The position numbers and the translations under genes were made by a program. From Holdemanella porci (lineage in GTDB: Bacteria > Bacillota_I > Bacilli_A > Erysipelotrichales > Erysipelotrichaceae), in assembly GCF_019052655.1 (NCBI RefSeq), contig NZ_JAHQVB010000015.1:1-35858 (forward strand): DNA of 35,858 bases, read 5' to 3'. This document shows, one piece after another, positions 7,052 through 29,352 of this stretch. Numbering within the stretch: position 1 is the first letter of the stretch; the number at the start of each line of letters is the position of its first letter. The notes under the pieces were generated by a model, which had not been told where the DNA came from, searched no databases, and saw only the letters and a program-made list of their open reading frames with translations.

Positions 7052-7490
7052 CTTTTCCATCCTCACTTTCCTTAATCATTTCACGCATAGCCTTCCATCC
7101 AATTGTGGCACAATTGATACGATTGGCTTGTTTTCCAACATTTTGAAACGCTATGGCCTCATCTAAAGCATCTTCATCATATTCTTTTTGATCAATCATT
7201 TTGAAATAATTGTCCATGATTTCTTTTGCTTCTTCTGTTGTCTTTCCTATTAATAGTTCAGACATAATTGAAGTCGAAGCTGTTGAAATTGTACAGGCAA
7301 CCCCATCAAAACGAATATCATCAATTTTTCCATCTGAAATTTTTGTCTGCACCGTAATATCATCAATACAAGAATCACTCGCCATATGACGTGACATGTA
7401 ACCATTGTCTTTTGTCAATTCTTTATTACGAGGATAGTCATAATGATCCATAATAATCTGGCGCATCAACATTGGATCAATATTTGACAT
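7044..7490 (-). CDS. sufU: SufU, zinc-dependent sulphur transfer protein, 148 aa
   Basis: The Gram-positive SufU accepts the persulphide from SufS. Zinc-ligand positions are visible: Cys41 and Asp43 in SCIDD, Cys66 in GVACTIS, and Cys127 in RINCATIGW. They match the three Cys plus one Asp described for Bacillus SufU. It keeps the insertion typical of SufU that separates it from IscU. It sits 15 nt after sufS and overlaps sufB by a few bases. The start ATG at 7490 follows GGAAGG. The function is well supported by family and context. Confidence 0.96.
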
Positions 7491-10447: not shown

Positions 10448-11473
10448 ATGACTGATATTTTACGAAATAACTGGTTTGTTGTACTTATTGCCATCATCAT
10501 TATTGGTTTTATTGGCTACTTCATCTACGACACCAATAAAGATAATGTTTCCGCAAAAACAACCAACAATGAACAAGTTATTGCTTCTATTAATAAGGAT
10601 GACATTACCGCTGATGATTTATATGATGAATCCACACCTTATGATGGCTCTACTATCTACAATATGTATAAAAATGCCGTTATCGATCAATCTATCAAAA
10701 CTACAAAAGATTTAAAGAAACAGGCAAGCACATTAGAGTCTAATATTAAATCTAACGCATCTAGTCAAAGTGATGACTATGAATCTACACTAACAACAGA
10801 GCTTGCCAAATATGGTTATGCATCCTATGAAGAACTTAATGATTATTGCTTAACAAGTGTAAAAGAAAAAGAAATGAATAAAAAATATATCACTAAACAT
10901 TTTGATGAAGTGAAAAAAGCTTGGGAAGATAAAAGCCCAAGAACCGTATCCATTATTAAAATGGATGTTAGTGATGCCGATAATCTAACAGAAACAGAAA
11001 CTAAAAAGAAAAGTAATATTGATAAGGCTTTAGAAAAAGAAAGCTTTGCGGATGTCGCTAAAGCCTTCTCTGAAGATTCAAATACCGCTAATAAAAATGG
11101 ATTTGCAGGATATGTAGATTCAAACTCAACAAGTTCAGGCTCAAATTCAACATCAACTGTTCCTGCTGATGTAGTGACAGCTGCAATCGGCCTTAAAAAA
11201 GGTGAAACAAGTGACTGGATCACAGTTACAAGTTCAAGTGGAACAAGCTTATATAAGGTATATGTAAAAGAAACAAATTCAAAGAAGATTTTTAACGCAA
11301 AAAGTGACACCGTTTCAAACCAAGCATTGTATGCCATCTTAAACAGCGATTCTTCTCTTTCATACAAGATTTTAGATTCGTATGCAAAAAAATTAGATAT
11401 TAAATTCAACGATAAAGACACAAAGAAAAAATTCGACAGCTATGTAAAAACAACTTATGGAGGTGATCAATAA
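10448..11473 (+). CDS. Membrane-anchored parvulin-like peptidyl-prolyl isomerase, 341 aa
   Basis: One N-terminal membrane segment (about residues 9-27, WFVVLIAIIIIGFIGYFIY) anchors the protein, with the rest outside the cell. A helical chaperone-like region with an SurA/PrsA-type layout follows. A parvulin (rotamase) domain then runs from PRTVSIIKMDV through FADVAKAFSEDS to WITV...LYKVYVKE. An Asn/Ser/Thr-rich linker interrupts the parvulin domain near residue 230. It probably helps secreted proteins fold. The start is set at the ATG at 10448 by the AAGGAGG. It is co-transcribed with the lipoprotein gene that follows, with a TAATG overlap. Confidence 0.85.
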   Translation: MTDILRNNWFVVLIAIIIIGFIGYFIYDTNKDNVSAKTTNNEQVIASINKDDITADDLYDESTPYDGSTIYNMYKNAVIDQSIKTTKDLKKQASTLESNIKSNASSQSDDYESTLTTELAKYGYASYEELNDYCLTSVKEKEMNKKYITKHFDEVKKAWEDKSPRTVSIIKMDVSDADNLTETETKKKSNIDKALEKESFADVAKAFSEDSNTANKNGFAGYVDSNSTSSGSNSTSTVPADVVTAAIGLKKGETSDWITVTSSSGTSLYKVYVKETNSKKIFNAKSDTVSNQALYAILNSDSSLSYKILDSYAKKLDIKFNDKDTKKKFDSYVKTTYGGDQ

Positions 11474-12378: not shown

Positions 12379-12413
12379 GGCCATTAGACAATAGTCTAGT
12401 GGCCCATTTTTTT
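12379..12413. terminator. Two-way rho-independent terminator
   Basis: The stem GGCCATTAGAC (12379-12389) / GTCTAGTGGCC (12394-12404) has loop AATA. T-rich sequence follows on the plus strand and AAAA on the left side. It serves the foldase pair (+) and the T7SS operon (-), whose last stop codon lies inside the stem. Confidence 0.8.
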
Positions 12414-12668
12414 CATCATTTCATCCAGTTCAAATCGAAAATTAAATTCTTCTATATCCTGTAACCCTATGTAAAATAAACAATCTATATCCTCATGATC
12501 AAATACGTAACAATGCTCCTTATCCATATAGCCTTCTGGCCATAAACATCCCGCATAATCATAGAGTTTTTTTGTCTTCATATTTTGTTGAAGACGCCCC
12601 ATGATCATTAACTTCTTTGTCCCCTCTTTTAAAGTGACAACACTGCCAATCGGTAATAAATCTTTCAT
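12396..12668 (-). CDS. DUF4176-domain protein, 90 aa, T7SS-associated
   Basis: The sequence KDLLPIGSVVTLKEGTKKLMIMGRLQ, then YDYAGCLWPEG and FDHEDIDCLFYIG, matches the DUF4176 family as I remember it. These are small proteins found beside WXG100/LXG genes in Bacillota type VII loci. The biochemical role is not known; an accessory or chaperone role for a secreted substrate is the usual guess. It is the last gene of the operon, starts 13 nt after the beta-rich candidate effector, with AAAGGAG 7 nt upstream, and ends inside the terminator. Confidence 0.85.
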   Translation of the reverse strand: MKDLLPIGSVVTLKEGTKKLMIMGRLQQNMKTKKLYDYAGCLWPEGYMDKEHCYVFDHEDIDCLFYIGLQDIEEFNFRFELDEMMKKMGH

Positions 12669-12680
12669 GCCGACTCCTTT

Positions 12681-13475
12681 CTAATAACTTACGTTGATTT
12701 TAAAGCCCAGTCCCGCAATAAAGCCAAGTTTTGAGCCGATTTCCCACTCCCTGCTAGAAAAATGATAAGAGAAATTGGCCTCTGCACTACCTACACTTCC
12801 TTGTGCTGTTAAAGTGACTTTCGCCCCAAGAATGTTCAATACACAACGTGTTTCGCCTCGTAAGGCTGCAACACCAACTCCAGCTTCAAACGACTGTTCT
12901 TTCCTAGAAAAAGCAGCTTTACAAGTCGCATACGCAACACCAACTTGCCCTGTTGCTCGAGCGCTCGCATAGACTTTTGAATTTCCAATACGCGCATTTA
13001 CTGTAGAAGATAATAACGCTAGACTTGACTCTGCATTTAATACTATACGCGGATCAAATTTCTTGTTCTTCCATATTCTTGCACTGATACTCGATTTAAT
13101 TTCTCCATCAAGAAGTGTGGCATTGGCCCCTACATGGAAATAAGGCTTTGTGTAATTTTTATTCCATTCTTTAAATGACTTTGTATAACGAATCGAACCA
13201 TACGAATAGCGACTCTGTTTTGTCAATTGTGAAACTAAATTCAAGTTTGTATACTTGATCAAATTCACCTTTCCAGGTTTCCAAGCACTTTGTTTGTGCT
13301 CGCAAGACTCAATTAAAGATGCGCTCTTCGATAAATAATTCGCAATATCCATTATTTCTTTTGCGATGCGATATTGCCTTTCATTAATTGTCGGATCTTT
13401 TGAAGATAGAGGCCTAGAAGCGAGCGCCTTATATTCAAGACTTAGATTTTGACAAGCTATACTATCGCCGTTCAC
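12681..13475 (-). CDS. Candidate T7SS effector with beta-rich Ala/Ser/Gly-repeat C-terminal region, 264 aa
   Basis: Not matched to a named family. Residues 1-65 are helical with a Lys/Glu pattern. From about residue 110 the protein becomes a series of short amphipathic strands rich in Ala, Ser, Gly and Val (SSISARIW, KVYASARATGQVGVAYA, FEAGVGVAALRGETR, KVTLTAQGSVGSAEANFSY), ending GFIAGLGFKINVSY. From memory, similar ASA-x-A-x-VG stretches occur in Bacillota proteins near WXG100/LXG genes. A beta-sheet or pore-like fold is possible. The start is GTG at 13475 with GGGG 10 nt upstream and a TGA two codons before it, so it is not fused to the 57-aa ORF it overlaps. No signal peptide; export through T7SS is inferred from position. 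Confidence 0.6.
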   Translation of the reverse strand: MNGDSIACQNLSLEYKALASRPLSSKDPTINERQYRIAKEIMDIANYLSKSASLIESCEHKQSAWKPGKVNLIKYTNLNLVSQLTKQSRYSYGSIRYTKSFKEWNKNYTKPYFHVGANATLLDGEIKSSISARIWKNKKFDPRIVLNAESSLALLSSTVNARIGNSKVYASARATGQVGVAYATCKAAFSRKEQSFEAGVGVAALRGETRCVLNILGAKVTLTAQGSVGSAEANFSYHFSSREWEIGSKLGFIAGLGFKINVSY

Positions 13476-13635
13476 GATTCATAATCCCCTGCATCTGAAT
13501 TTGAATTAAATATTGAATTCGACTGACCTTTTGATTCACATAGACAAACTCTTCATTCGATACAATATTTTTTGTCTGATTTAACAACGCATTTAAATCA
13601 CTAGACAAGGCATTGTAGAAATTTATCTCATTCAT
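13462..13635 (-). CDS. Small helical protein of the T7SS operon, 57 aa
   Basis: An ATG at 13635 directly follows the WXG100 stop (its TGA is at 13630-13628), and the ORF reads MNEINFYNALSSDLNALLNQ onward to a TAG at 13464-13462. It overlaps the GTG start of the next gene by 14 nt. The product is strongly helical with heptad-like Leu/Ile spacing (residues 36-50, KVSRIQYLIQIQMQ). It sits where LXG-effector operons often carry small helical targeting proteins, which suggests a chaperone or partner of the next gene product. Support is coupling and frame only; no family is recognised. Confidence 0.55.
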   Translation of the reverse strand: MNEINFYNALSSDLNALLNQTKNIVSNEEFVYVNQKVSRIQYLIQIQMQGIMNRERR

Positions 13636-13912
13636 AACGCATCAAAGATTGTTCGTTTTCCTGATATAGATTTGCGGTTTGATGTAAATACGTAGAAAAG
13701 CGTGCTAACGTATCTAAATACGACATCATTGCTGGATTCAACGTTTGAAATTGTTCCATAAAGTATTTCGAAGCTGGAGATTGCCAAATAGATTCCACAT
13801 AATACATTCTGGATTCAATTTCGTTAAATACAGTTCGAATCTCATTGGCATACGTATCCACCTGCTTAGAATATGCCATTACATCTTCACTTGATATTTG
13901 AATTTGTGCCAT
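13628..13912 (-). CDS. WXG100-family protein, WxS variant, 94 aa
   Basis: EsxA-like helical hairpin of about 95 aa. The turn motif is W-Q-S (IWQSPAS, about residues 43-49) instead of W-x-G. A C-terminal YxxxE (YQENE, in ANLYQENEQ) matches the T7SS secretion signal. Proteins of this family are secreted as helical dimers by EssC. AGAAGGAG lies 9 nt upstream of the ATG at 13912. It follows the other WXG100 gene by 12 nt; the two may form a heterodimer, like EsxA/EsxB. Confidence 0.88.
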   Translation of the reverse strand: MAQIQISSEDVMAYSKQVDTYANEIRTVFNEIESRMYYVESIWQSPASKYFMEQFQTLNPAMMSYLDTLARFSTYLHQTANLYQENEQSLMRYE

Positions 13913-13924
13913 ACTTTTCTCCTT

Positions 13925-14218
13925 CTACAACAACAATCTAGCTTGTGCAACACGATCTTGTTGAAGCTGTTCGTAAACCGAAGCTGTCTGCTTCAATACA
14001 TTGCTGTATTCTAGAATTACTTGATACATTTCATTTAATGAAGGTCTAAATTCTTCTAGCTGATTTTGAAAAGCTAAATGATCCACCCCCTGCCAGATAC
14101 TTTGCATCTGCTCCACTTTTTTATAAAGATTCTGAATTAGATCATTATAGCTATCCGCTTTGTTTTTCACATAGACACTTGCCTGATATACTTCGGAATA
14201 ATCCACTGATATTTTCAT
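13925..14218 (-). CDS. WXG100-family protein, 97 aa
   Basis: Helical hairpin with the standard turn motif W-Q-G (SIWQGVDH, about residues 42-49) and flanking amphipathic helices (YNDLIQNLYKKVEQMQ; YQVILEYSNVLKQTASVYEQLQ). The C-terminal signal is YEQLQ, lacking the D/E at position five, so it may rely on its partner for export. GGGAGGT lies 6 nt before the ATG at 14218, and the EsaB-like gene ends just upstream. Likely a structural or chaperone substrate of the T7SS. Confidence 0.9.
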   Translation of the reverse strand: MKISVDYSEVYQASVYVKNKADSYNDLIQNLYKKVEQMQSIWQGVDHLAFQNQLEEFRPSLNEMYQVILEYSNVLKQTASVYEQLQQDRVAQARLLL

Positions 14219-14220
14219 TT

Positions 14221-14427
14221 TTACCTCCCGTAGATTAAGATATCGCCATAAGCGATTTGATTTTCTTGAAACGTTTTATTTAAATCTAAAAAATAATTTC
14301 CTGTCACATTAAACACATACTGTATTTCATAACCTAAAAACTCATTCAAAAACATTTTTACAACATACAATTGAGATACATATACCATTCTTAGATCAAG
14401 TGACAAATATATACCAACCTCATTCAC
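14221..14427 (-). CDS. EsaB/YukD-like small ubiquitin-fold protein, 68 aa (GTG start)
   Basis: A short protein VNEVGIYLSLDLRMVYV ... NKTFQENQIAYGDILIYG, with alternating strands and the ending N-x-x-F-x-x-x-x-I-x-x-GD-x-L that YukD/EsaB proteins share. It has the size (about 70-80 aa) and locus position (next to EssC and WXG100 genes) of EsaB. These are cytosolic regulators or components of T7SSb. The GTG at 14427 is chosen because AAGGGG lies 9 nt upstream; it overlaps the EssC stop by 8 nt. An ATG at 14445 is a weaker alternative. The fold is inferred, not proven. Confidence 0.6.
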   Translation of the reverse strand: MNEVGIYLSLDLRMVYVSQLYVVKMFLNEFLGYEIQYVFNVTGNYFLDLNKTFQENQIAYGDILIYGR

Positions 14428-17400
14428 AAATACCAACCCCTTCATTTTGATCTTTAAAAAAGACACAATCAAAATGTTCATATGGAAGCTTTCGCTTTAA
14501 CATATATCCATATTCTTTTAAACCATAACCAACCCATACAATTTGAGCATTGTATAGTTTCTTTTGAAATGCATCCTCATTCAATAAACTCACATCTACA
14601 CACACGACATATACATCACTCTCTTGATGCCAATCACTCGTAATTTTTAAATGTGCTAAACTCTCACATATACAATTTACTACATGCACATAATCCGTAT
14701 GCATATATAAAATGAATAACTTTTTTGTTTCATCCATAAAAACCGGTCGATCGCCTTTACATTCAAAACCAATACAATTTTTATCCTTATTAAATATCAT
14801 CGATTTTGTAGCTCTTGTTTTAAGATCTGTTTCTTTTATCTTTCGATATAAAATTTCAACATATGCATTGTGATACAGCGTCATATTTAGATACGAAGGC
14901 AGATGGTAGGTGTCAAAGAATATCCGTTTATCATCTAAACTCTCTATATCAAATACATACTTATTTAAGATCCATTTCAAATTTGTGGTTTCATTATTCG
15001 TAACCACAAACGAAATTACATGTTCATCCAATTCAGAAAGATCCAAATTCTCATCTTCGAAAATGATACAAACACCTTCATGAATCTTTGAAAAATAGCG
15101 AGATTGAAAGAAACTAAAATCTACATAGGAATCCAACATATTTGTTCCATAGACATAGATCGTTTCATTTTCAAAATATTTGATCAAACGATATACAATA
15201 TCTAGACTTTTTGTATAAAACAACTGTATTGACATAAATTCAATTTCACATTGTCTTTGTTCAAAAGGAAGATCTAACACACCAAATACATATTCAGGAA
15301 TATCTTTAGGCAACAACACCCATTCTCTTGCTTCCTTTAAATCATGAATTTGATCCTTTAATACATCCATGACACGCTTACCCGCATGATGTTTTGAATG
15401 CAGTACTTCTTTTTTCTCATTGATTTCACGCCAACATATTTCATCTATTGAACTTTGTAAATAAAAACTTCGACAAGATTGATTCTTTTGTTGGTGCTGA
15501 AGAATCATATCTCCTGGATTTTTTAAATGATACGCCATTTCATTTTGAAGTATTTCCCGACTATCTTGTACACTACTCACATGAAAACAGGCCCGCCAAG
15601 TTGTATTGGACCAAACTTGATCATCAATGATACCAGAAGGTTTTTGTGTGCTTAAAACCAAATGGATGCCTAGTGATCTTCCAATTCGTGCAATTTCCTG
15701 CAGTTGTGACATAAATTGTGGAAATCGCATTTTCAATTGGGCAAATTCATCCACAAAGATCCATAAATGTGACATTGTACAGATCTTATTGTAGGAATGA
15801 ATATCCGATACTTTTTCTTTTAAGAACAAGCGCTGTCTTTTCTCCAATTCATAATTCATGCTCTGAAAAAAACGTTCCATAGATTGTGCATCTAAATTGG
15901 TCACAATTCCTGCACAATGCGCAAATTCATAAAAGGGTTGTCCAAAAGCACCGCCCTTAAAATCAATCAATACATATTGAAATTGTTGAGGTGTATTATG
16001 CCATATCAGCATCATCAAAAGAAAACTAATAAATTCACTCTTGCCAAAACCTGTCATTCCTGCAACTAAGCCATGAGGCCCATACTCTTGAAAATCCATA
16101 ACAACAATTTGTTGGGACTCATCAATACCTACTGGAACTTTCATTACATACTCAGATTTTCGAACAGGACCTATTTTGATTAGTTGATCATAGAAATTTG
16201 AATCTTCATTCCGCAATACAAATCGTTTTCGATCCAAGCCTAATTCTGTTATCGCAATTGTTTCAATTTGGTAGTCATAATGGAAAGATGGTTTTTGTTT
16301 TCCCACATAAATCAAACAATAATACGACTTAGGAAGATATTTTCCTTCTATATCAACGACTATTGTATCGGCATCGATTTTTTCACAAATAGCACAATAG
16401 GGATTTAAAAGAATTTGTTTCATTCCATCAAACTCCTGAAGCCATACCCATTTACGTTTTTGTTTGGAATACCACAAATAATTTTCAAATAAAATAACAC
16501 TTGACTTCACATCTCCTTGAATCCAACAAGCTTCGCCTTGTCTTAAAAATATAGGAAATTGTACAAATTGATTTAAGTTTGAGATTAACTGTTCTCTTTT
16601 TTGCATCAACTCATCAAGTGCATATTCATACGAAACTTCACGATAACTTATTTTGCACCATGCATTGTATGCACACCCTACATAAATCACATCTCTGTTT
16701 TCGTGTTGGTATGTATCGATATATTTAGTAATATATTCATCCATCTGTTTTTTAAATGTACCTTTAGATATAACACCCTTTTCATACATCTTCTCTATGT
16801 AGGCATTATACATATCGATACTTTTTTTGCTCTCTTTTACACTTAATTTGTATTGATAATTCCGGTTGTAAAGGCCATACACCATAAAAGTAAATGCCAT
16901 TGTCAAAGAGCTGATCATACTTGTGAAGAGTGATTCTATTCTTTGTTTTTGAAGATATCCAATCAAAATGGAGGAGACAAAACCAGAACTTGCGATCATA
17001 CAACTCGGTCCTATCGCACTAAATAGACTTTGTTTTTGAACTGTACGCATAATTTGTGGCATCTGAATATCAAATTTTTGAACCTTTGGCATTTCAATAT
17101 TTAAACAGTACGGATAATATGTTGCATTTTTACGATCTAGCTCTACATTACTATAAGGATTGTTGACCATATCCAAAAGTACATAATCTTTAAAATAAAT
17201 CATGCGAATGTTCGCAAACACAATCTCATCCTGCATACAAAGGCTGCATCTTTTAACTCGTTTCGAATTGACATACGTACCGTTTAAACTATCAAAATCC
17301 TGTAATACACCTTCTTCAATTTGAAAATGATACCTGGACACTCCATTCGTACATAATTGAATATCACATGCTTCACTTCTTCCAACCTTTATCTTTTTAG

Positions 17401-17620
17401 AAATTGGAAAATGGCACATTGTACTTTCTATTTCTTCTAAATAAAATAAAACTTCATCTAGAATACACGATTCGCCATATCTCAATATTTTTTTAGATTG
17501 GTTCCATACAATACACACACCATTCCTTCTTTTTTCAAAGAAGTACTTTGAAAATGACTTTGTGCAGTTCAAGTCAAAGTAGTGGCAGGATTTGTCTGTG
17601 TATAGCCATAGTTTGATCAT
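14420..17620 (-). CDS. essC: EssC-type FtsK/SpoIIIE ATPase of the type VII secretion system, 1066 aa
   Basis: Motor of T7SSb. An N-terminal FHA domain has GRS (80-82), SRYH (95-98) and NGTYVN (113-118). Two membrane segments follow (about 203-222 and 238-253). The first ATPase domain is intact: Walker A GMTGFGKS (521-528) and Walker B IFVDEF (621-626). The C-terminal 400 residues hold degenerate ATPase-like domains without a second clear Walker A. EssC/YukB proteins usually reach about 1450-1500 aa, so this one is short, probably lacking one full ATPase module. The start overlaps the upstream stop (ATGA) with no Shine-Dalgarno, so translation is coupled. It drives export of WXG100 proteins. 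Confidence 0.93.
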   Translation of the reverse strand: MIKLWLYTDKSCHYFDLNCTKSFSKYFFEKRRNGVCIVWNQSKKILRYGESCILDEVLFYLEEIESTMCHFPISKKIKVGRSEACDIQLCTNGVSRYHFQIEEGVLQDFDSLNGTYVNSKRVKRCSLCMQDEIVFANIRMIYFKDYVLLDMVNNPYSNVELDRKNATYYPYCLNIEMPKVQKFDIQMPQIMRTVQKQSLFSAIGPSCMIASSGFVSSILIGYLQKQRIESLFTSMISSLTMAFTFMVYGLYNRNYQYKLSVKESKKSIDMYNAYIEKMYEKGVISKGTFKKQMDEYITKYIDTYQHENRDVIYVGCAYNAWCKISYREVSYEYALDELMQKREQLISNLNQFVQFPIFLRQGEACWIQGDVKSSVILFENYLWYSKQKRKWVWLQEFDGMKQILLNPYCAICEKIDADTIVVDIEGKYLPKSYYCLIYVGKQKPSFHYDYQIETIAITELGLDRKRFVLRNEDSNFYDQLIKIGPVRKSEYVMKVPVGIDESQQIVVMDFQEYGPHGLVAGMTGFGKSEFISFLLMMLIWHNTPQQFQYVLIDFKGGAFGQPFYEFAHCAGIVTNLDAQSMERFFQSMNYELEKRQRLFLKEKVSDIHSYNKICTMSHLWIFVDEFAQLKMRFPQFMSQLQEIARIGRSLGIHLVLSTQKPSGIIDDQVWSNTTWRACFHVSSVQDSREILQNEMAYHLKNPGDMILQHQQKNQSCRSFYLQSSIDEICWREINEKKEVLHSKHHAGKRVMDVLKDQIHDLKEAREWVLLPKDIPEYVFGVLDLPFEQRQCEIEFMSIQLFYTKSLDIVYRLIKYFENETIYVYGTNMLDSYVDFSFFQSRYFSKIHEGVCIIFEDENLDLSELDEHVISFVVTNNETTNLKWILNKYVFDIESLDDKRIFFDTYHLPSYLNMTLYHNAYVEILYRKIKETDLKTRATKSMIFNKDKNCIGFECKGDRPVFMDETKKLFILYMHTDYVHVVNCICESLAHLKITSDWHQESDVYVVCVDVSLLNEDAFQKKLYNAQIVWVGYGLKEYGYMLKRKLPYEHFDCVFFKDQNEGVGICE

Positions 17621-19368
17621 AATTTAAAGATTTGTTTGAGCCACATTCTTATTTTCTGTATAGAGGTGATTCTCACAGCTGACCTTTTGATTTCTTCTTT
17701 TTTTAATACTTTGCGATGCTTTGTCTTTACCTCAATTGAGGTCTTTTTCTTTTTTAATGAAATCTCGACAAAATCATGTCCCATCACATCTTTTTCAATC
17801 TGTACACGCTTACCATTGACTAAAACATACTCGATCTTATCTTCAGACCATATTTGTACCTTATTCTTTTTACGCGTATAGTGAATTTTGGGCTTAGAAA
17901 CCTTTTGAATATGTTTCTTATTCTTTTTTAAGACCACTTCATTATCGTCATTTACAACCCAGACACGTTCAAATTCAACCACTTCATCTTTTTCTAGAAC
18001 TTGTTCACTTTTTGAAACCATTTCAATCTCTTTATCGGGACTAAATACAAATTCATATTCTTTCTTTTCTAGGTTCATCAGCACATCATTTGTATATGTC
18101 ACAATTTTTAATACATCATCTTTGACCATACGATTAAAGACTTTCTCAAAATCCATATCCATGAAAGTATCATTTAAATAGTATTCCACCCGCATATACG
18201 CATTTGAAGCATCATACTTGTATTCTAGGCTGGGGCGTTTCTTTATATTCATGCGATCCACAACCCTTTCATTATTCATAAACAACTGACTTGAAGGGGC
18301 TTTTTTATCGATTTGAACATAAATTTGATCACTTACCTCATGTCCATATATATCTTTGGCATACGCACTCACACAATAGATGACATCCTGATTATGTATG
18401 GCCGGTAAATGAATCGTTTCATTGAGCGCATAGCGCGTTTTAATACCATTGAGATCCACATCTATATATCCTATTTCTAATTTAGATACATTACGGATTG
18501 CTTTCACAATGACATCCTCATTAGATAGCTTACTTGAAGGAGTTAATGTGATTATTGGCAAAATATTGGAATATTCAATAGAGCCTTCGATACTTTTTTT
18601 AAATTGTGGATACTCTTTATGTTCTAACTCAAATGTATACTTTCCATTTTTTGAATGATCAATCAACACTTGATTTTTGTCTTCTAAATCAAGTGAATAG
18701 TAATATATACCATCACAATACACATGCAGGTTAAAAGCCTGTTTACATACAGATTCAAATTGCATGTTAGAATGATTTTCTTTTGTGTACACGACAGAAT
18801 TTAATAAACATTCAGGATATTTAATAGGTAAAATTTTAATTTCTCTTTCCAACTTATTTTGTGCAATATCTGTACAGATTATTCGTAATGATTGATTTTT
18901 GGATGTAACATCCACATCAAATTCAAGTTCTTCACAATCCATTTGTTCATCATCTAAATAAACTTCAATACTTTTCAAATTTTGTTCGAATATCTTTACA
19001 TGAACGGTTTCTTTATCTTCTAAAGGAAGTACATCCAGAATCTTTTGATTATTTGTATTAAATACAATATCTGGCATTGTCGTATCTAATAGAATTGTCT
19101 TTTCACCTTCCTGTAACGCATAGCCATCTACATCTTTTAAAATATATACAAGCTGTGTGATTCCTTCTTTTTGAATATCGATAAAAGTATGTTCGTTGTT
19201 TAAATCAATTTCTTTGCCATCATAAATAACTAAACTGGAATCTCGATCCACTTTTTCATCAAAGAACAACTCAATATTCCCTGTCGCAGAGGCCACACCA
19301 TTTATAAAGTTTTCTGTTTCCTGCCAATATATAAAATCTGTATATTCAACATCTTGTAGAGAAATCAT
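17617..19368 (-). CDS. Ig-like-repeat protein of the T7SS operon, 583 aa, unknown role
   Basis: Not recognised. The N-terminal ISLQDVEYTDFIYWQETENF has no signal peptide. The body is a series of beta-rich segments of about 80-90 residues with strand-turn boundaries such as LLDTTMPDIVF and QIDKKAPSSQLF, the look of bacterial Ig-like or cadherin-like repeats. The last 130 residues are very Lys-rich (KIHYTRKKNKVQIW, KKKKTSIEVK) and end in a basic amphipathic helix (KIRMWLKQIFKL) that could touch the membrane. The ATG at 19368 has GGAGG 5 nt upstream and overlaps the kinase-like stop; it overlaps EssC at the 3' end. Between EssB-like and EssC genes, it is probably a structural T7SS component. Confidence 0.75.
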   Translation of the reverse strand: MISLQDVEYTDFIYWQETENFINGVASATGNIELFFDEKVDRDSSLVIYDGKEIDLNNEHTFIDIQKEGITQLVYILKDVDGYALQEGEKTILLDTTMPDIVFNTNNQKILDVLPLEDKETVHVKIFEQNLKSIEVYLDDEQMDCEELEFDVDVTSKNQSLRIICTDIAQNKLEREIKILPIKYPECLLNSVVYTKENHSNMQFESVCKQAFNLHVYCDGIYYYSLDLEDKNQVLIDHSKNGKYTFELEHKEYPQFKKSIEGSIEYSNILPIITLTPSSKLSNEDVIVKAIRNVSKLEIGYIDVDLNGIKTRYALNETIHLPAIHNQDVIYCVSAYAKDIYGHEVSDQIYVQIDKKAPSSQLFMNNERVVDRMNIKKRPSLEYKYDASNAYMRVEYYLNDTFMDMDFEKVFNRMVKDDVLKIVTYTNDVLMNLEKKEYEFVFSPDKEIEMVSKSEQVLEKDEVVEFERVWVVNDDNEVVLKKNKKHIQKVSKPKIHYTRKKNKVQIWSEDKIEYVLVNGKRVQIEKDVMGHDFVEISLKKKKTSIEVKTKHRKVLKKEEIKRSAVRITSIQKIRMWLKQIFKL

Positions 19369-20699
19369 AAACTCCTCCAAAATTCATAAAGATCTTTCCA
19401 TCTTTCACTTTTTAAATTGTCAATAAAAACCACTGGAATTTCCATATTTTCACTCTCCTTATTTCGTAATAAAAGTACATATTCCAAGTAATTACATCCT
19501 AGATTTTCAAATTCGGCTTGATACGTTTTTAATGTCTCTGGACTTATACTTTCAATCCAGTCTTTAATCGGTTGAATCGAAATTTTGATTTCTTTATGTA
19601 GACCAAACTGAAGACATTGATTTAACACGTTCAATTTATCTTTTAGAAGCAAGTTATTTGAATTAACCAGCTTAACACACGTATCAATATGTGCGGCATC
19701 CGGATTTAAATACACCAGCACAAGTGCTTGAAGCTCTGGCCATTTATTTAAAGAAACACGATCATATACATATCGAATCAAAGTAGCATCTTTTGTCGCT
19801 ATTGCCTCCTCCATTAAAAATAAAGATGCTTGTTCATTGACATATACTTCATCCAAGATCCATCCATTAGAGATCCACGTATATAAACGATCTTGTTTAT
19901 CAGACTCTTTATACGCTTTTTCAAATAAGGCAATTTGATGATGGGTGTAGTACGCATCAAAGACACTTTTTGGACTTGTACTGAAGACAGACAGAATACA
20001 TATAGAAAGTACAAGCAAGATTCGAATGATGATATGTATAAAGATCAAGTTCTTAAATGTAGATAATCGAGATATTCTTCGCTCTTGTTTTTGATGACAC
20101 AAAAGAACTATGGGCATCATACTTATGCCGAAAAGTTCTTGAATCAAAGAACCAAGTGCATAGATATCACAACGAATATCCTTTTCACTCAATGTTAATA
20201 ATTCAGGTGCACAATTAGATTTTGAAGCCATCACTGCCACATGTGAGTGATTTTCAATACATGCGTTAAAATCAATTAAATAAAAATGGTTCTGATAATA
20301 AATAATATTTTCAAGTTTTAAATCAATATAGAGATAGCCAATCTGATGCAGGTCTTGCAAGACTTTTAAAACATCAATTAGCAAACGATACTTTTTGAAT
20401 AAACAACGATGGTTTTGAAAGTATTGTCTTGCGTTGATTCCTGGAATATACGTTTCGACAAAATATTGTGCAAAGTCTTCTTCAAAACAAGTGATCAAGC
20501 TAGGGACATGGATCGAATTTAAGTTAGAGAGCACATTGATCTCTGTTTTAAATTGATGTTTATATCGTTCTGTTTCATAATCTGGACAGATTTTTAAAAT
20601 ATAAACACATGTACTAAATTCATCCATAACACGATAAACATTGGCATTATAGGTATGTACGACCTTATATCTATTGTTCTTTAAATTCACACACGACAT
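19365..20699 (-). CDS. EssB/YukC-like membrane protein with a Ser/Thr-kinase domain, 444 aa
   Basis: The N-terminal kinase fold runs from about residue 10 to 190. The ATP Lys is in YILKI (Lys36), the alpha-C Glu in KTEI (Glu53), the catalytic loop is YIDLKLEN (Asp126, Asn131), the metal Asp is in IDFNA (Asp143), and an APE is at 164-166. The Gly-rich loop is not conserved. A membrane helix follows (about 217-239), then a helical extracytoplasmic region to 444. This order is that of EssB/YukC, whose kinase domain is normally an inactive pseudokinase; here most catalytic residues are kept. It overlaps both neighbours. An alternative start at GTG 20687 is possible. Confidence 0.75.
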   Translation of the reverse strand: MSCVNLKNNRYKVVHTYNANVYRVMDEFSTCVYILKICPDYETERYKHQFKTEINVLSNLNSIHVPSLITCFEEDFAQYFVETYIPGINARQYFQNHRCLFKKYRLLIDVLKVLQDLHQIGYLYIDLKLENIIYYQNHFYLIDFNACIENHSHVAVMASKSNCAPELLTLSEKDIRCDIYALGSLIQELFGISMMPIVLLCHQKQERRISRLSTFKNLIFIHIIIRILLVLSICILSVFSTSPKSVFDAYYTHHQIALFEKAYKESDKQDRLYTWISNGWILDEVYVNEQASLFLMEEAIATKDATLIRYVYDRVSLNKWPELQALVLVYLNPDAAHIDTCVKLVNSNNLLLKDKLNVLNQCLQFGLHKEIKISIQPIKDWIESISPETLKTYQAEFENLGCNYLEYVLLLRNKESENMEIPVVFIDNLKSERWKDLYEFWRSL

Positions 20700-21627
20700 C
20701 ACCAAATCTTATCGTCATTCCATCTTTTAATCGCATCTTGCGTTTCACTTCTTTTTCGTTCAGATACGTCTTATTCGTACTCTTTAGATCTTGTATATAG
20801 TACCGATCATTTTCACATACGATCTTGGCATGTTTTAAAGATATACTCGCATCCTGTATACGGACATCACATACCATCGCTCTTCCTACTAGATTGATTT
20901 CATTGCACAATGCATATTTTTCCTGATCGCATAATAGGTAGGCATAAAAATCTATTTTTACTTGTAAAAGCTGTGTTTTTTCTTCCAAAACAGATTCAAC
21001 AGGCTTCTCTTTATGGAAAGCTTGTATGGGTTCTTTGACTTTAAATGTCTGCATTCTCTTGTTTTTAAAGAAAAATAACTTTTTCGGATAATATAAATTT
21101 CGTATATTATCCAGACCTAAGACAAGATTGGGTAAACTAAACTCAGCACTCTTTAAAAACTTCAATAAAAATCCAGGAATTTCAAAAGCGGTTGTAGTCT
21201 GCATCGTTTTTGCGATATACTCCACCCATTTTTCTGACATATCCTTTTGAAACATCCAGTTCGATATTTGAATGGGCACCACGACAAACGCAAAGCGATC
21301 TCCAAAACTAGAGACAAATACGTAGTCTGGATCAAATAGAACTGGTTTATTGCGATTGGATGCGATGGCTTGTTCAAATAACTGATGCAAGAATATATAG
21401 CCTTCTTCTTTTTCAAACACATACTGACTTAAAAAATCATGTAAAGGAATATAGCCTTCTATCGCATACACCATCGATGCCGTTTTTTCGTTTGTCAACA
21501 TACAAGGCAGACAAAAATCATCGTTCGATAATCGATCAAAAATGGATAGGTCGAGTAATTCTGGATTTTTCAAATGAACATACAAGTGATTATCATCCAT
21601 GTGATCTTGTTCAATCCATTCGGACAT
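20671..21627 (-). CDS. DUF6382-like plus FHA-domain protein of the T7SS operon, 318 aa
   Basis: The N-terminal 150 residues match the general layout of DUF6382 (PLHDFLSQYVFEKEEGYIFL, LFDPDYVFV), a domain often joined to FHA in Bacillota. The C-terminal FHA domain (about 236-315) has GR (248-249), S-x-x-H (SLKH, 263-266) and a variant NKTYLN (285-290) in place of NGTYVN, so phosphothreonine binding is plausible. T218 in EEKTQLL, between the domains, resembles Thr sites that FHA proteins use when phosphorylated. It is the first gene of the operon, with GGAGGTGATGAG before the ATG. Likely a scaffold linking the kinase-like protein with the apparatus. Confidence 0.8.
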   Translation of the reverse strand: MSEWIEQDHMDDNHLYVHLKNPELLDLSIFDRLSNDDFCLPCMLTNEKTASMVYAIEGYIPLHDFLSQYVFEKEEGYIFLHQLFEQAIASNRNKPVLFDPDYVFVSSFGDRFAFVVVPIQISNWMFQKDMSEKWVEYIAKTMQTTTAFEIPGFLLKFLKSAEFSLPNLVLGLDNIRNLYYPKKLFFFKNKRMQTFKVKEPIQAFHKEKPVESVLEEKTQLLQVKIDFYAYLLCDQEKYALCNEINLVGRAMVCDVRIQDASISLKHAKIVCENDRYYIQDLKSTNKTYLNEKEVKRKMRLKDGMTIRFGDVVCEFKEQ

Positions 21628-21727: not shown

Positions 21728-22243
21728 ATGATGAAATTTATAACATATATTCACGTTTATTTAATTCAAACCATCCTGAATTTCCTTCCATTTTGCTGGA
21801 TTGACATCTTCTATGACAATCAGACGTATATAGGAAATCAACTACATCACCCCATATATTTATTTCTATGGGCGTTTAGTTCGGCAATTGGATTTTATTA
21901 TTATTCAAAAAAAATATGGGAAAAATATAACGTAAATTACAATAAAAAAAATCATGTCTTAATCTGTTTAGGCATGATTCTTTCATGTAGTATTCCCTAT
22001 AACGATATAACACTTTTAAAAGACCTTCACGTATGGCTTTCCATTCTTTTTGTAGCCTGTTTTATCCTTGAATGGTTTCTTTATATTCCGGTTCACTTAA
22101 ATAAAAACTCAATCCTGTTTTTTATCAACATTGGATTGAGTTTTGTGTTCACATTTATGTTTGGCCACATTACTGGCTTTTGCGAAATCTATTTTTCATT
22201 TACTACGAATATTCTACTTCATCACTGGATGTTTCAGGATTGA
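21728..22243 (+). CDS. Small integral membrane protein, 171 aa, unknown function
   Basis: Not recognised. Four or five hydrophobic helices are visible (about residues 8-24, 42-59, 78-93, 99-121 and 127-150), joined by short Lys/Asn-rich loops. There is no enzyme motif. It runs divergently from the T7SS operon and its 3' end overlaps the 3' end of the convergent TPR gene by 41 nt. The start has no Shine-Dalgarno but sits at the predicted transcription start. A T7SS link is possible from position only. Hydrophobic composition could arise by chance on the AT-rich strand, but the clean promoter supports a gene. Confidence 0.6.
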   Translation: MMKFITYIHVYLIQTILNFLPFCWIDIFYDNQTYIGNQLHHPIYLFLWAFSSAIGFYYYSKKIWEKYNVNYNKKNHVLICLGMILSCSIPYNDITLLKDLHVWLSILFVACFILEWFLYIPVHLNKNSILFFINIGLSFVFTFMFGHITGFCEIYFSFTTNILLHHWMFQD

Positions 22244-23510
22244 TCTTTTCAATCTTATCTAAGTAGTTTTTCGCTTTTTTCACAAAATACATACGATTTC
22301 CAAGCTCAAGTACTTTTTCAAAATATAAGCGAGCCAATTTATAATCTTCTTCTACAAAGGAGATCAAAGCAATATAGTAACATGAATCTACTTGCTGGAA
22401 AGGAAAATTCGCTCTTTGTAGACCTTGTAAATAATATTTCTTACAAGTATTCAAATCCCCATCCATAAGATGAATCTTATTTTCAATGGCCGCCATTTCT
22501 TCACTTTGAATCATGACACCAGCACGTCCATAATGAAGACGAATATTTTGCGCCTCTTCTTTACAACGAGATAAAGCCTCTTCATCCTTCAACATATAAT
22601 AAATATACGACATCAATGACCAATATTGTAAAGAACTCGCAGCATCCTTACGCGGATAACTGATCAATACATCTTGAGCAAGTTCAGCATCATTTAAATA
22701 AATCAAGCATTGTGCAAGCAATGTATGCTGGCTCAAGCGCGTATGTCCCTTTGAATTTGTGCAATAGTAAATAATGGCACTCGCACAAGCCTCAGGATTA
22801 CAATCTTCATATAATAATTTTGTGATTGGTAAAAGGGATACAGCACGATAACGTAACACTAAATTAAACGCAAATAAGTAGAACATCAATAATACAGCTA
22901 GAAGCATCATATTATTTACGGCAATTAAAATTGCAAATAAGGCAACAATGCCTAACGCATAGATACCTGTTAATTTACGAACATTTTTACGACAAGTCTT
23001 TGCAAGATCCTTATAAGACTCATCCAATTCATGATGAATCTTATATATACGAACCAATTCATCATCGCTTGTAAAATTAAATTCGCGACGTTCTTTCGAA
23101 ATGCTTTTGCGCAAACTTAACATTCCATAAATACATACAACAAATGCAGGCACAACCAAAATGGCACCAATATAGATCATGTATTCAGGTAAAAAGAAAA
23201 TCAAACACATAACGATCCATGGGCTAATGTTGAATCGCGCTGTTACATATTGTCCAATATAAATGATATTGATGATTCCTGAAATCAATAAGGCATCACC
23301 TACATATAAGATCCACATATTATTTTGCAGATACGTTAAAACCTGTTTCAGTGATTCTGTATCTACACCTGGTACAGAACTTAATGAACTCGACAACATA
23401 TCCGAACTCATATCGATACCACTCGCAAATACAACCGCACATAAGCAAAGTCCAACTAAAAAAGCTACAACTAAAGCTATTAAATGGGATTTACAACGAT
23501 ATTTCCACAT
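22203..23510 (-). CDS. Membrane protein with C-terminal TPR-like repeats, 435 aa
   Basis: Not assigned to a named family. Several membrane helices lie at about 9-30, 65-90, 97-113, 115-133 and a pair at 183-220. The long C-terminal half (about 230-425) is helical with TPR-like features (LAQCLIYLNDAELAQDVLI, YYIALISFVEEDYKLARLYFEKVLELG). It probably holds protein contacts on the inner face of the membrane. It starts 8 nt after cysE, with AGGTGG formed at the cysE stop, so the two are co-transcribed. Its place next to the T7SS operon makes an assembly role conceivable but unproven. Confidence 0.75.
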   Translation of the reverse strand: MWKYRCKSHLIALVVAFLVGLCLCAVVFASGIDMSSDMLSSSLSSVPGVDTESLKQVLTYLQNNMWILYVGDALLISGIINIIYIGQYVTARFNISPWIVMCLIFFLPEYMIYIGAILVVPAFVVCIYGMLSLRKSISKERREFNFTSDDELVRIYKIHHELDESYKDLAKTCRKNVRKLTGIYALGIVALFAILIAVNNMMLLAVLLMFYLFAFNLVLRYRAVSLLPITKLLYEDCNPEACASAIIYYCTNSKGHTRLSQHTLLAQCLIYLNDAELAQDVLISYPRKDAASSLQYWSLMSYIYYMLKDEEALSRCKEEAQNIRLHYGRAGVMIQSEEMAAIENKIHLMDGDLNTCKKYYLQGLQRANFPFQQVDSCYYIALISFVEEDYKLARLYFEKVLELGNRMYFVKKAKNYLDKIEKINPETSSDEVEYS

Positions 23511-24837: not shown

Positions 24838-24932
24838 AACATCGTCGAGTAGACTTTGTCTCGACCTTCACCCCTTTCATCAATATAAAATAATTTCGCG
24901 ATGAGAGGTTCAAGTCTCAAAAGCCCCTCACA

Positions 24933-24965
24933 GAACCGCACGTGCCCTATTAAGGCATACGGCTC
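24933..24965 (-). ncRNA. Group II intron domain V
   Basis: A 33-nt hairpin begins GAGCCG, with the AGC catalytic triad, and closes in CGGTTC. Domain VI follows directly, with an unpaired A in its 3' arm as branch-point candidate. This is the most conserved part of the ribozyme. Confidence 0.85.
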
Positions 24966-24982
24966 TTCAACAAATTATTCAC

Positions 24983-26248
24983 CTAATAAGCACTATTTAA
25001 ATATATCTTAGGACACTCCAGTAGATGTATCTTTAGGATATTTATATATTTATTCCAAGTTAACCAGTTAGTCTGGTCTCTGCGTCTCTTGCTTTTACGC
25101 AATTCTACTAGAACATATTTATAGAACTTTAGTAGACCGACATAGTTACCATAAATTCCATAATATCTGTAATGTCCTGTTAATCTCACATTCAACGCTT
25201 CAATGGTATCCTTAATGCTTTCGTGCATATGTTCCCATAACCATCTCTTAATGGCTTCTCTTTTCATTTTCAACTTCTTCTTGCTTGTTCTATGCAGTAC
25301 ACAATATTTGCCCCAATGACTTTTCGCATTGTAATGTGTAAATCCAAGAAAATCAAAGGATTCCTTTGTTCCCTTGTATCTGCCAAAGGGTAGTATTCTG
25401 CTTTTATCTTCTGCAATTTCAAGACCAAACTTCTTTAGTCTCTCTATTAAAAGCTGATAAAACTTTTGCGCTTCATTCTCGTATTGAAACAGACATACAA
25501 AATCATCTGCATAGCGTACCATATACATTTCGCCCCTGAATTCACGTTTCTTTACATAATCGAACCATGTATCAAGTACATAATGTAGATACACATTTCC
25601 AGTACTGGTGATATTAATCCTCCCTGTACTTTTCCTGAATCTGTAGCCAGTCGTTTTACCATCTTCCATAACTCCACCAATCAGAAATCGTTTGATGTAT
25701 CTGATAAAATTCTTGTCTGCTATGTCATGCTCTAAAAAATTTATCATCCAATCATGGTCGATGTTGTCGAAGAATCCTTTAATATCTGCGTCTAAGATGT
25801 AATTAACCTTATTAGCCATGATATGTTTGTTCACTCTCTGTATTGCATCGTGACAACTCCTGTTTGGACGAAACCCAAAAGAGAAATCTTTGAATTTGGG
25901 TTCATAGATTGCCTCTAGAATCTCCTTGAAGACTCCTTGCACAACTTTATCCTCAAATGATGGAATGCCTAGTCCGCGCATTTTCCCATTTCCTTTCGGT
26001 ATAAAGGCTCTGCACACTGGATAAGGCCTATAAGAAAATTTCTTCATTCTGATTAACAGATTTTCAATATTTTCGTCTATGTTTTCTCCATATTGCTCCT
26101 TGGTTACCCCGTCAACTCCAACCGCTTTTCCTTTCGGTTGCTTTTTGTAGGATTCCTTGAGTGTGTCATTGTTTACATATTTCATTAACGACTGTACTCT
26201 GTCATATCTTGCTACGAGATTGGCTATTTCTGCTTTCTCTTTTTCCAT
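24983..26248 (-). CDS. ltrA: Group II intron reverse transcriptase/maturase, 421 aa, with internal compensated frameshift
   Basis: RT blocks are clear: FIPKGNGKMRGLGIPSFEDK, GFRPNRSCHDAI, DADIKGFFDNIDHD and the catalytic YADDF, then the maturase thumb (GHYRYYG). No endonuclease domain is present. Between MEDGK and NVYLHY the frame reads an unrelated 19-residue stretch. In the +1 frame the same DNA gives RLATDSGKVQGGLISPVLG, the expected QGG-x-x-SP block. One extra base in TTTT (25654-25657, plus strand) and one missing in CC (25599-25600) account for this. As written the protein lacks a motif needed by RTs, so it is probably inactive. AGGAGGC precedes the ATG. Confidence 0.85.
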   Translation of the reverse strand: MEKEKAEIANLVARYDRVQSLMKYVNNDTLKESYKKQPKGKAVGVDGVTKEQYGENIDENIENLLIRMKKFSYRPYPVCRAFIPKGNGKMRGLGIPSFEDKVVQGVFKEILEAIYEPKFKDFSFGFRPNRSCHDAIQRVNKHIMANKVNYILDADIKGFFDNIDHDWMINFLEHDIADKNFIRYIKRFLIGGVMEDGKTTGYRFRKSTGRINITSTGNVYLHYVLDTWFDYVKKREFRGEMYMVRYADDFVCLFQYENEAQKFYQLLIERLKKFGLEIAEDKSRILPFGRYKGTKESFDFLGFTHYNAKSHWGKYCVLHRTSKKKLKMKREAIKRWLWEHMHESIKDTIEALNVRLTGHYRYYGIYGNYVGLLKFYKYVLVELRKSKRRRDQTNWLTWNKYINILKIHLLECPKIYLNSAY

Positions 26249-26775
26249 AGATTACTTGCCTCCTGTGCTTTCTATGTTTTGATTGCAAAAGCAACTTATT
26301 GTCCGTCCCTTCCCTCTAGCGTCATTACTGCTTTCCATGGTACTATAGACGAATCCGACTCCTCAATGGTCTTCGTTCATACTCATCATTGCATTGACCG
26401 ATACTCCCTACTGTCTCATGTACAGAACCATCCAGGCCTCCCAGGTATTTCAAATATAACAATATCAGGTATGCCGTGCTCTAGGACTCCGGTGTGTTTT
26501 CATAGTCTCGCTTTAGCGACTAATCCTTGTTGGTGACCCAAGAAAGTAGTAGACCACCCCACACAATCGATAATTCTAACGGAGCTCAATCACTTCACGC
26601 TTACGCATTACGGCGTTCCTGTTTCCTGTCCTACGCTTAAACACCGTTGTTAGCCTTTGGTGCTCCAAGGACTTGGTACTGGCAACTTGCTAGGTTTTAC
26701 CAGACTGGATTCCCACCAGTTATATATTTGGCACCGAACTGGCGCACACTTCCTGAAACTATTATACCTCTAAAT

Positions 26776-26810
26776 AAGAAAAGAAAGGAAGATAATTCAC
26801 TATCTTCCTT
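26776..26810 (-). terminator. Terminator of clpB
   Basis: A perfect 10-bp stem AAGGAAGATA (26785-26794) / TATCTTCCTT (26801-26810), 6-nt loop, is followed on the minus strand by TTTCTTTTC. The clpB stop codon lies at its start. A TATAAT box (26761-26766) just beyond it could serve the sirtuin gene, interrupted by the intron. Confidence 0.75.
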
Positions 26811-29352
26811 GAATATCAAATGTATACTCGCCATTTTGACAATCTACATGGATTACATCCCCTTGCATAGCGCCAGTCTTAATCATTTCCTTGGCAATCT
26901 GTGTCTCAAGATTTCTTTGGATATAACGCTTCATAGGACGAGCACCATATACAGGATCTACCCCCATCTTTGCGATCTGATTGTATACAGCATCACTTAC
27001 ATTCAATGTAATGTCACGTTCAGCCAAACGTTTTTGTAGCAAGCCGACAAACTTGTGGGCAATCTTAATAAAGGCCGAATCATCTAATGCGTTGAACACA
27101 ATAATTTCATCGATACGGTTAATGAATTCTGGTTTAAAGTGACGCTTTACTTCTTCCATATATTTATCATGTACATCACCAGATTCAAAGGCATATTGGC
27201 TACCTAAGTTAGATGTTAAGATAATAATTGTATTCTTAAAATCTACCGTAACACCTTTCGAGTCTGTAATACGACCATCATCAAGAATTTGAAGTAACAC
27301 ATTGAATACATCTGGATGCGCCTTTTCGATTTCATCAAACAAGACAATACTATATGGATTACGACGAACAGCTTCCGTTAATTGACCTCCCTCATCGTAT
27401 CCTACATATCCAGGAGGTGCACCAATTAATCGTGCCACACTGTGTTTTTCCATGTATTCACTCATATCAATACGCACAATATGTCTTTCATCGTCAAATA
27501 ACTGTTCAGCCAAAGCCTTGGCAACCTCCGTTTTACCAACACCAGTTGGACCTAAGAACATGAACGATCCAATTGGACGATTCTCATCTTGAATCTGTGC
27601 TTTAGAACGCAAGATTGCATCTGTTACAAGTTCTAGAGCTTCATTTTGACCAACAACACGTTTTTCAAGTTCTTCCTTCAAATTCAATAATTTATCTCTT
27701 TCAGAGGCAACCAAACGAGTCACTTCAACGCCTGTCCATCTAGAAACGATTTTCGCAATCAATTCTTCATTGACCGTTTCTTGAATCAAAGCATCCTCTT
27801 TTTGACTTGCCTGCTCTTTTTGAATACGAGCCTCTAATTCTGGAATCGTGCCATATTGAAGTTTAGCAGCATCTTCGTAACGAGCTTCATTACGCGCTTG
27901 CTCTAAATCCAAACGAGCTTTCTCCAAACGTTGTTTATCCTCTTTTTCATTAGCCAAGCCATGTTTTTCGTCTTCCCACTTAGAATGCATTTCATCACGC
28001 TTTGATTGTAAAGAAGCTAATTCACTTTCAATTTCTTCACGACGCTCAATAGCCCTTTTATCTTCTTCTTTTTGTAGAGAAGTCTTTTCAATTTGAAGTT
28101 GTAAAATCTTACGCTGTAATTCATCCAACTCTTGAGGCATACTTTCCATTTCAACCTTTAACGTAGCACAAGCCTCATCCACTAAGTCAATTGCCTTATC
28201 TGGTAAGAAACGATCCGTGATATAACGATCGGACATAGTAGCTGCCGCAATTAAAGCTTCATCCAAAATACGTACACCATGATAACTTTCAAAACGATCT
28301 TTTAATCCACGCAAAATACTGATTGTATCCTCTACACTTGGCTGAGCAACTTGTACTTTTTGGAAACGACGCTCTAAAGCGGCATCCTTTTCAATATATT
28401 TACGATATTCATTGAAAGTTGTTGCACCAATACAATGTAGTTCACCACGCGCTAACATTGGCTTTAATAAGTTAGCCGCATCCATACTACCTTCGGTTTT
28501 ACCTGCACCAACCAAGTTATGAATTTCATCAATAAACAAGATGATTTGTCCATCCGATTTTTTAACTTCATCCAAAATGGATTTTAAACGCTCCTCAAAT
28601 TCACCACGATACTTAGCACCGGCAATCAAAGATCCCATATCCAATTCAATCAAGCGTTTCTCTTTTAATGACTCAGGCACATCCCCCTTCATAATACGCC
28701 ATGCGATCCCTTCAACAACAGCTGTCTTACCAACACCAGGTTCACCAATCAAAACAGGGTTGTTCTTTGTCTTACGAGATAAAATCTGCATAACACGTCG
28801 AATTTCATCATCACGTCCAATAATTGGATCAATCTTACCATCACGCACATCCTGAACTAGATCACGACCATATTTCTTTAAAGCTTCTACATTCTCTTCT
28901 GAATTTGGCGTATCAAATTTTTTACCATTACGACGCTCTAATTCAGCTTTGTAGCAAGCATCCTTATTCAAGTTAAAAGTTCTTACCAATTCTTTAGAAA
29001 TATAAGAACGATTAAACAATAGAGCTAAGAATACACTAGCTACTGAAAGATAAGTTTCATCATGTTGACTCGCCCAGTTTTGCGCATCTTCAAACGATTT
29101 CTGCACTTCATTGGATAAATTTATATTACTTGTTGAGCTCTTTGCGACACGATTAGATTCTTGTTGAGCCATCTGTAAAGCACGACCTTTATCCAAGCCA
29201 ATACGCTCAAACAAGCCGTCCAATACATCATCCTTAAAAATCGTTTCCAACATATCCACAGTATCTACACTTGGATGTTGGTTGGATTTTGCCAAATTAA
29301 TGGCATCCATTAAAATCTTCTGCAAACGCTCTGACATTTGATCGATATTCAT
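26800..29352 (-). CDS. clpB: ClpB disaggregase, 850 aa
   Basis: AAA+ chaperone that pulls proteins out of aggregates together with DnaK. An N-terminal Clp-N repeat domain comes first; then NBD1 with Walker A GEPGVGKT and Walker B LFIDEIHN, a long coiled-coil middle domain rich in Glu/Lys/Gln (about 400-520), and NBD2 with GPTGVGKT and VLFDEIEKA. There is no ClpP-binding loop. The start ATG at 29352 has AAGGAGGTGC upstream; an earlier in-frame ATG at 29379 falls in the operator. Control is by HrcA through the CIRCE element. Length is normal. Confidence 0.97.

Follow-up and report, generated by a model that had tools for sequence, protein, structure and literature searches.

The locus considered here raises the question of whether a type VII secretion system (T7SS) may be controlled by a membrane kinase encoded within its own operon. 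It lies on contig NZ_JAHQVB010000015.1 of Holdemanella porci, a species of a gut genus in the family Erysipelotrichaceae, within a stretch of 35,858 nucleotides that was analysed as a whole (the window). On the minus strand, the genes between 21627 and 12396 overlap or follow one another closely and are taken as one operon. Its gene order is FhaJ (the name used here for an FHA protein), the kinase, a protein at the position of the immunoglobulin (Ig) protein, an ATPase, an open reading frame (ORF) of 86 amino acids (aa), two WXG100 proteins, a small ORF, a 264-aa protein and a DUF4176 protein. An earlier sequence-only reading had noticed that the protein at the position of EssB, the pseudokinase component of T7SSb, keeps kinase catalytic residues, and had proposed a phosphorylation-gated secretion system. 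Kinase control is also a published suggestion for T7SSc-j: in the only paper found to describe these subtypes, Garrett, Higginson and Palmer (2024, PMC11217815) propose it because kinases and FHA domains are present, so the central idea was already in print as a possibility. What is newly added is a compact clade of loci, a lopsided decay of the kinase, the absence of a phosphatase gene from most loci, relatives whose locus has no kinase, and a threonine motif. The best explanation as a whole, with a probability of about 0.5, is that the kinase would phosphorylate Thr218 of FhaJ and that docking through FHA domains would promote secretion.

The kinase ORF encodes 444 aa from an ATG codon, or 446 aa from an upstream TTG. 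The Pfam Pkinase profile (PF00069) covers residues 21-192 with 67.5 bits against a cut-off of 31.7, a match well outside what chance would give. An AlphaFold2 model (mean predicted local distance difference test score, pLDDT, of 89.5) contains a kinase domain, a helix at 212-239 with a hydropathy of 2.95 and a helical outer part at 246-443, in agreement with the layout described from the letters alone; the relative placing of the domains is unsure because the predicted template modelling score is 0.53. For the outer part, a helical repeat, no solved structure was matched with confidence. Lys36, Glu53, Asp126, Asn131 and Asp143 had been numbered exactly, and each is kept in 27-29 of the 28-29 non-redundant relatives in which conservation was counted. 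The statement that only the Gly-rich loop is degenerate, however, turned out to be wrong: DFG reads DFN, HRD is replaced by Y-I-D, which places the protein among the non-RD kinases, and the Pfam match ends early, at profile position 191 of 263. As judged from these comparisons, the erosion is lopsided, the Gly-rich loop and the DFG glycine of Hanks-type Ser/Thr kinases being gone and the phosphotransfer residues retained. The most probable reading is a functional Ser/Thr kinase with a minimal design, and its catalytic activity seems probable. The closest named relatives in one genome scan come from Holdemanella porci (93%, residues 1-275) and H. biformis DSM 3989 (69%). A defence-system reading was rejected: the kinase is matched by 24 PADLOC families (Stk2 among them, the best being PD-T4-6, E=3.1e-20), the matched stretches lie in or near the kinase domain, and these matches are taken as generic.

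The search for relatives covered 115 genomes of the family, an even draw from a larger group. A kinase match at E<=0.001 is present in 109 of them, mostly weak and confined to the kinase domain. Seventeen kinase places were fetched with their surroundings, some of the stretches being short. An ATPase tree was built with 25 rows; it is rooted at the midpoint and has some long branches, and the L022 stretch has no ATPase. In this tree the window and 15 of the 17 fetched places group as one clade, with 100/100 support. FhaJ is followed by the kinase, the Ig-position protein and the ATPase, in this order, in all 16 clade loci. WXG100 genes follow in 15 of the 16; the remaining one, L033, ends near a contig end. 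The ATPase measures 1048-1153 aa in 15 clade loci and 816 aa in L033, where its ORF ends 25 bases from the contig end. Each of the 16 clade ATPases has one Walker A motif, a feature that was dropped as a hallmark of the clade since a single one also occurs in L037, L045, L046, L049 and L053. The Ig-position protein has a C-terminal hydropathy peak in 10 of the 16 clade loci, the window not among them. Near-identical plasmid copies were looked for and none was found, and a literature search combining type VII secretion, Erysipelotrichaceae and WXG100 gave no match; the one match for Holdemanella together with type VII secretion deals, to judge by its title, with colorectal cancer.

Fuller loci are seen in L045 and L046. 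Both encode FhaJ, PP2C and a kinase of 580-593 aa that has Gly-loop and DFG. One small single-helix protein accompanies these in each locus, as do an ATPase of 1304-1313 aa, a pair of WXG100-like proteins and the remaining operon genes. Both also have a long protein with a hydrophobic N-terminus and a C-terminal membrane helix, which in L045 carries Big_13 repeats (E=1.8e-32). By their recognisable components, these loci would fit T7SSe or T7SSj of PMC11217815. The Gly-loop and canonical DFG are shared by the kinases of L045, L046, L047 and L053; in L053 FhaJ and the kinase stand without an intervening gene. At the other end of the range, neither a kinase nor an Ig-position protein was seen in the fetched 20 kb of L048 and L049, which keep FhaJ, the ATPase, two WXG100-like proteins, the 264-type protein and DUF4176; elsewhere in these two genomes kinase matches are weak only. 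As a separate observation, the kinase gene of L037 (G053, 5436-7113) is split over two frames, with Gly-rich loop and DFG present, unlike in the window clade.

The second line of evidence comes from FhaJ, which is composed of a weak DUF6382 part (16.9 bits, under the Pfam cut-off of 26.7), a linker and a C-terminal FHA domain. Both FHA domains claimed for the operon were recovered by Pfam, at residues 246-309 of FhaJ (20671-21627) and 77-135 of the ATPase (14420-17620). A threonine in the context T-x-[ILVMF]-[ILVM], 28-33 residues before the FHA Gly-Arg, is found in 22 of 24 loci against 2.4 expected from shuffled sequences. Similarly, the same motif with the same spacing is present in 30 of 30 FHA-bearing representatives against 3.5 expected; these were drawn from 33 sequences under 80% identity, taken from the window and the 120 listed of 363 homologues, three of which lack the FHA domain. 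Both expectations overstate independence because the rows are related. The spacing is near-fixed despite a highly variable linker: FhaJ has 316-347 aa in most clade loci, 556 aa in L036 and 625 aa in L033. FHA domains bind pTxx[I/L/V] or pTxx[E/D] (PMC8786283), so Thr218 fits as an FHA ligand.

A scan of eight operon protein families (13-16 rows; the 86-aa and small ORFs aside) for threonines kept in 80% of rows gave, besides the FhaJ linker, T287 in the FhaJ FHA domain, T523, T574 and T658 in the ATPase core, and T79 in a WXG100 protein; the 264-aa protein has an N-terminal conserved-Thr site that is Ser in the window. The kinase and the Ig-position protein gave no such threonine. The tails of the small single-helix proteins of L045 and L046 read K-T-Q-L-L and T-A-V-L-L, two cases only. 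Thr218 appears to be the best candidate substrate; that it is the main target of the kinase is put at slightly less than an even chance. The motif is not mentioned in the main-text parts of PMC11217815 considered here, supplements aside, and a named TQXI motif is absent among the literature matches listed.

The proposed mechanism can be outlined as follows. The protein would be the membrane kinase of a compact T7SSe/T7SSj-like secretion operon, with its activity set by its own outer helical part or by partners in the secretion complex. Its main substrate would be Thr218 (E-K-T-Q-L-L) in the linker of the neighbouring FhaJ. Phosphorylated Thr218, which suits pTxx[ILV], would be recognised by an FHA domain, either that of a second FhaJ copy or that of the EssC-type ATPase, so that FhaJ docks or oligomerises on the ATPase and secretion is promoted or permitted, the direction of the effect being assumed. 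Removal of the phosphate would fall to a PP2C encoded elsewhere. In the window, no PP2C match was found among the 35 scanned of 56 ORFs of at least 80 aa, the other 21 being under 110 aa or antisense (two: 10843-11421 and 26647-27039). A PP2C gene occurs in the fetched stretch only in L034 and L035, leaving 14 of 16 clade loci without one; from this, the phosphatase is proposed to be encoded elsewhere, most simply beside the general kinase. PP2C is present somewhere in 17 of 17 genomes checked, and in 13 of them one lies no more than 1 kb from a listed kinase match.

Several observations weigh against this explanation. The Gly-rich loop is found in none of the 27 representatives covering that stretch, nor in the window, and DFG has become DFN in 28 of 29; L031, L034 and L035 also have an eroded activation segment. 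The kinase-less L048 and L049 both keep the phosphothreonine site of the FHA domain. L047 misses the spacing, its T-x-PHI-PHI motifs lying further upstream in the linker, and L049 reads K-T-C-Q-L at the place of the motif. In the operon-family alignment Thr218 reaches 0.88, two long-linker rows being aligned elsewhere. More than one PP2C is encoded in 7 of the 17 genomes, which makes the candidate phosphatase ambiguous. The idea of phosphorylation-gated secretion comes out partly supported: the catalytic residues, the FHA sites and the Thr218 motif speak for it, the loss of the Gly-loop and the kinase-less relatives against it, and the gating is proposed tentatively. Doubtful is its most far-reaching form, in which the machine is gated by its own non-RD, Gly-loop-free DFN kinase through Thr218, read by the FHA domains of FhaJ or the ATPase, and in which the motif is a general T7SSe/j phosphoacceptor found also on small membrane proteins.

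Rather unlikely is a role as an EssB-like assembly scaffold, in which the kinase domain binds the FHA region of the ATPase without phosphorylation and the retained residues serve stabilising ATP binding. The layout is indeed that of EssB/YukC, with a cytoplasmic kinase-like domain, one membrane helix (212-239 vs 220-243 in YukC), a helical outer domain and a similar length; the Gly-loop and the DFG glycine are lost; and a contact between YukC and the FHA region of YukB, seen in E. coli, is held to be phosphorylation-independent (PMC9600267). However, EssB is described as degraded in all three catalytic motifs (PMC12599244), whereas the window kinase retains Lys, Glu, catalytic Asp, Asn and metal Asp, and the FHA phosphothreonine sites lost in T7SSb (PMC11217815, PMC9600267) are kept as well. 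Kinship to EssB/YukC was not detected at the sequence level. The EssB/YukC profile PF10140, which finds YukC in G006 and B. subtilis, gives no match to the window kinase at E<=0.05, and hhalign against one YukC of the same family yields a probability of 0.8%; orthology to EssB was rejected. The G006 YukC protein search returned 2 proteins only, too few for a strong profile, and EssB/YukC structures are not among the 50 matches listed per structure comparison, which is no evidence against kinship. PF10140 matches in 1 of the 115 family genomes, G006, where the YukC gene of L054 (E=1.1e-54) adjoins a 1099-aa ATPase with two Walker A motifs; a T7SSb-type locus thus also occurs in the family.

Somewhat less likely still is that the kinase is active mainly on another target (the ATPase, substrates, or the small membrane proteins that fuller systems have), and that Thr218 is phosphorylated by a housekeeping kinase. 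The comparison of kinase absence with the motif is equivocal, L048 retaining it and L049 having it altered; the intact FHA site in both, the motif in L048 and the similar tails in L045 and L046 would agree with this alternative. It is countered by the threonine scan, in which the kinase and the Ig-position protein have no conserved site and those of the ATPase lie in the core only. Certain divergent kinase-like enzymes transfer another group in place of phosphate, such as AMP, but this is very improbable here: the DFN and Y-I-D motifs are unusual yet fixed and the Gly-rich loop is missing, but the retained residues and their spacing are of the protein kinase type, and the relatives L045, L046, L047 and L053 have the canonical DFG and Gly-loop.

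Phosphorylation of Thr218 by the operon kinase, as the preferred explanation, is open to direct experiment, since a candidate phosphosite that is highly conserved, and whose spacing is near-fixed, makes the published suggestion testable on one residue. Furthermore, the loci form a natural series, from kinase plus phosphatase (L045, L046) through kinase without a locus phosphatase (most of the window clade) to no locus kinase (L048, L049). Such a series could show a secretion kinase decaying or turning dispensable, as EssB presumably did.

Features of the operon in the window (all on the minus strand; boundaries of the kinase parts are approximate)
Feature	Position	Evidence or conservation
TseD-like membrane Ser/Thr kinase (predicted), 444 aa	19365..20699	Pfam PF00069 E=1.6e-18; model pLDDT 89.5; hydropathy
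Kinase domain	20067-20678	
Membrane helix	19983-20066	
Outer helical part	19368-19982	
K36 codon (VAIK lysine)	20592..20594	27/28 representatives
E53 codon (helix C glutamate)	20541..20543	27/28 representatives
D126 codon (catalytic Asp, Y-I-D-L-K)	20322..20324	29/29 representatives
N131 codon (catalytic-loop Asn)	20307..20309	28/29 representatives; H in L031
D143 codon (DFN motif)	20271..20273	28/29 representatives; exception P0072, a partial match
FhaJ, TseJ-like FHA protein, 318 aa	20671..21627	FHA E=7.3e-20
Thr218 codon, candidate phosphoacceptor	20974..20976	30/30 FHA-bearing representatives, 22/24 loci
FhaJ FHA domain	20701..20892	GR, SxxH and N all kept
Ig-position (TseI position) protein, ~583 aa	17617..19368	place in operon; phmmer relatives
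EssC/TsxC ATPase, 1066 aa	14420..17620	one FtsK match E=2.6e-24; one FHA match E=5e-11
ATPase FHA domain with phosphothreonine-site residues	17216..17392	Pfam match; residue check
Sole Walker A found in ATPase (GMTGFGKS)	16037..16060	motif scan
86-aa ORF at EsaB/TsxB position	14221..14481	position only
WXG100 protein 1	13925..14218	PF06013 E=7.2e-16
WXG100 protein 2	13628..13912	PF06013 E=2.5e-13
Conserved 264-aa protein	12681..13475	14/16 clade loci
DUF4176 protein, last operon gene	12396..12668	PF13780 E=3.7e-30; 13/16 clade loci

The ATPase matches TIGR03928 with E=2.4e-76 and 257 bits, under its cut-off of 778, and both PF06013 matches are over theirs. The Ig-position protein of the window has no Pfam match, no hydropathy peak of at least 1.6, and by hydropathy neither a signal peptide nor a membrane helix; the 86-aa ORF has no Pfam or NCBIfam match. 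The 264-aa protein is a possible substrate. Between it and the second WXG100 gene lies a small ORF of about 57 aa (13462-13635, minus strand), and ORFs of 60-64 aa occupy the matching place in L024, L025, L026, L028, L029, L032 and L035. A terminator-like hairpin at 12379-12404 was scored on the plus strand; such sites number 5 against 3.6 expected. Divergent from FhaJ, a 171-aa membrane protein without Pfam match (21728-22243, plus strand) has relatives in place at 15 of 18 candidate neighbours (E<1e-3), including the kinase-less L048 and L049, and may be an unrecognised accessory component. Upstream of FhaJ, a 435-aa protein (22203-23510, minus strand) with several hydropathy peaks and weak TPR matches was matched in 10 of the 17 fetched loci. 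Further along, a group II intron (24844-26713, minus strand; Rfam RF02005 at 26477-26713, RF00029 at 24844-24967), with a reverse transcriptase ORF at 24983-26248 between the two matches, stands between SIR2 and ClpB-like genes. The SIR2 ORF of the window has 244 aa; in L022, overlapping ORFs of 275 and 859 aa are equated with SIR2 and the ClpB-like gene by size and place only.

Among known systems, T7SSe and T7SSj, as described in PMC11217815, are closest. The window shares with them WXG100 proteins (as a pair, like T7SSe), an FtsK-type ATPase with a phosphothreonine-competent FHA domain, a membrane kinase at the locus with a helical outer part (TseD/TsjD), an FHA protein with a weak DUF6382 match (TseJ is DUF6382 plus FHA) and a protein at the Ig-protein position. 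It differs in that no PPM phosphatase gene (TseF/TsjF) was found in it, and the operon, where alone they were searched for, has no small single-helix TseK (nor, as in T7SSe, TseH as well); from FhaJ through the kinase and the Ig-position gene to the ATPase, each gene overlaps the next, so there is no gap for such a gene. The ATPase is only 1066 aa long and a single Walker A was found in it; of the four NTPase domains described for TsxC, one FtsK match could be recognised; the Ig-position protein is short, whereas TseI has a signal peptide and a C-terminal membrane helix; and the kinase has DFN and no Gly-loop. In the position of the ubiquitin-like TsxB the window has the 86-aa ORF without a profile match. 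Since several defining features of T7SSe and T7SSj are missing, the window is filed as neither; the operon looks like a reduced relative of these systems that works alike.

In the PknG-OdhI/GarA switch the spacing from the threonine to the FHA domain is longer than in FhaJ. This switch resembles the present locus in having a kinase-target Thr N-terminal to an FHA domain (PMC8546545), and differs in being a metabolic regulator whose kinase lies outside a secretion operon. In the PpkA-Fha pathway of the type VI secretion system, a Ser/Thr kinase and an FHA protein likewise control a secretion machine; the machine is unrelated, and the phosphoprotein described for A. tumefaciens (PMC3953482) is TssL, whereas here the candidate is the FHA protein itself.
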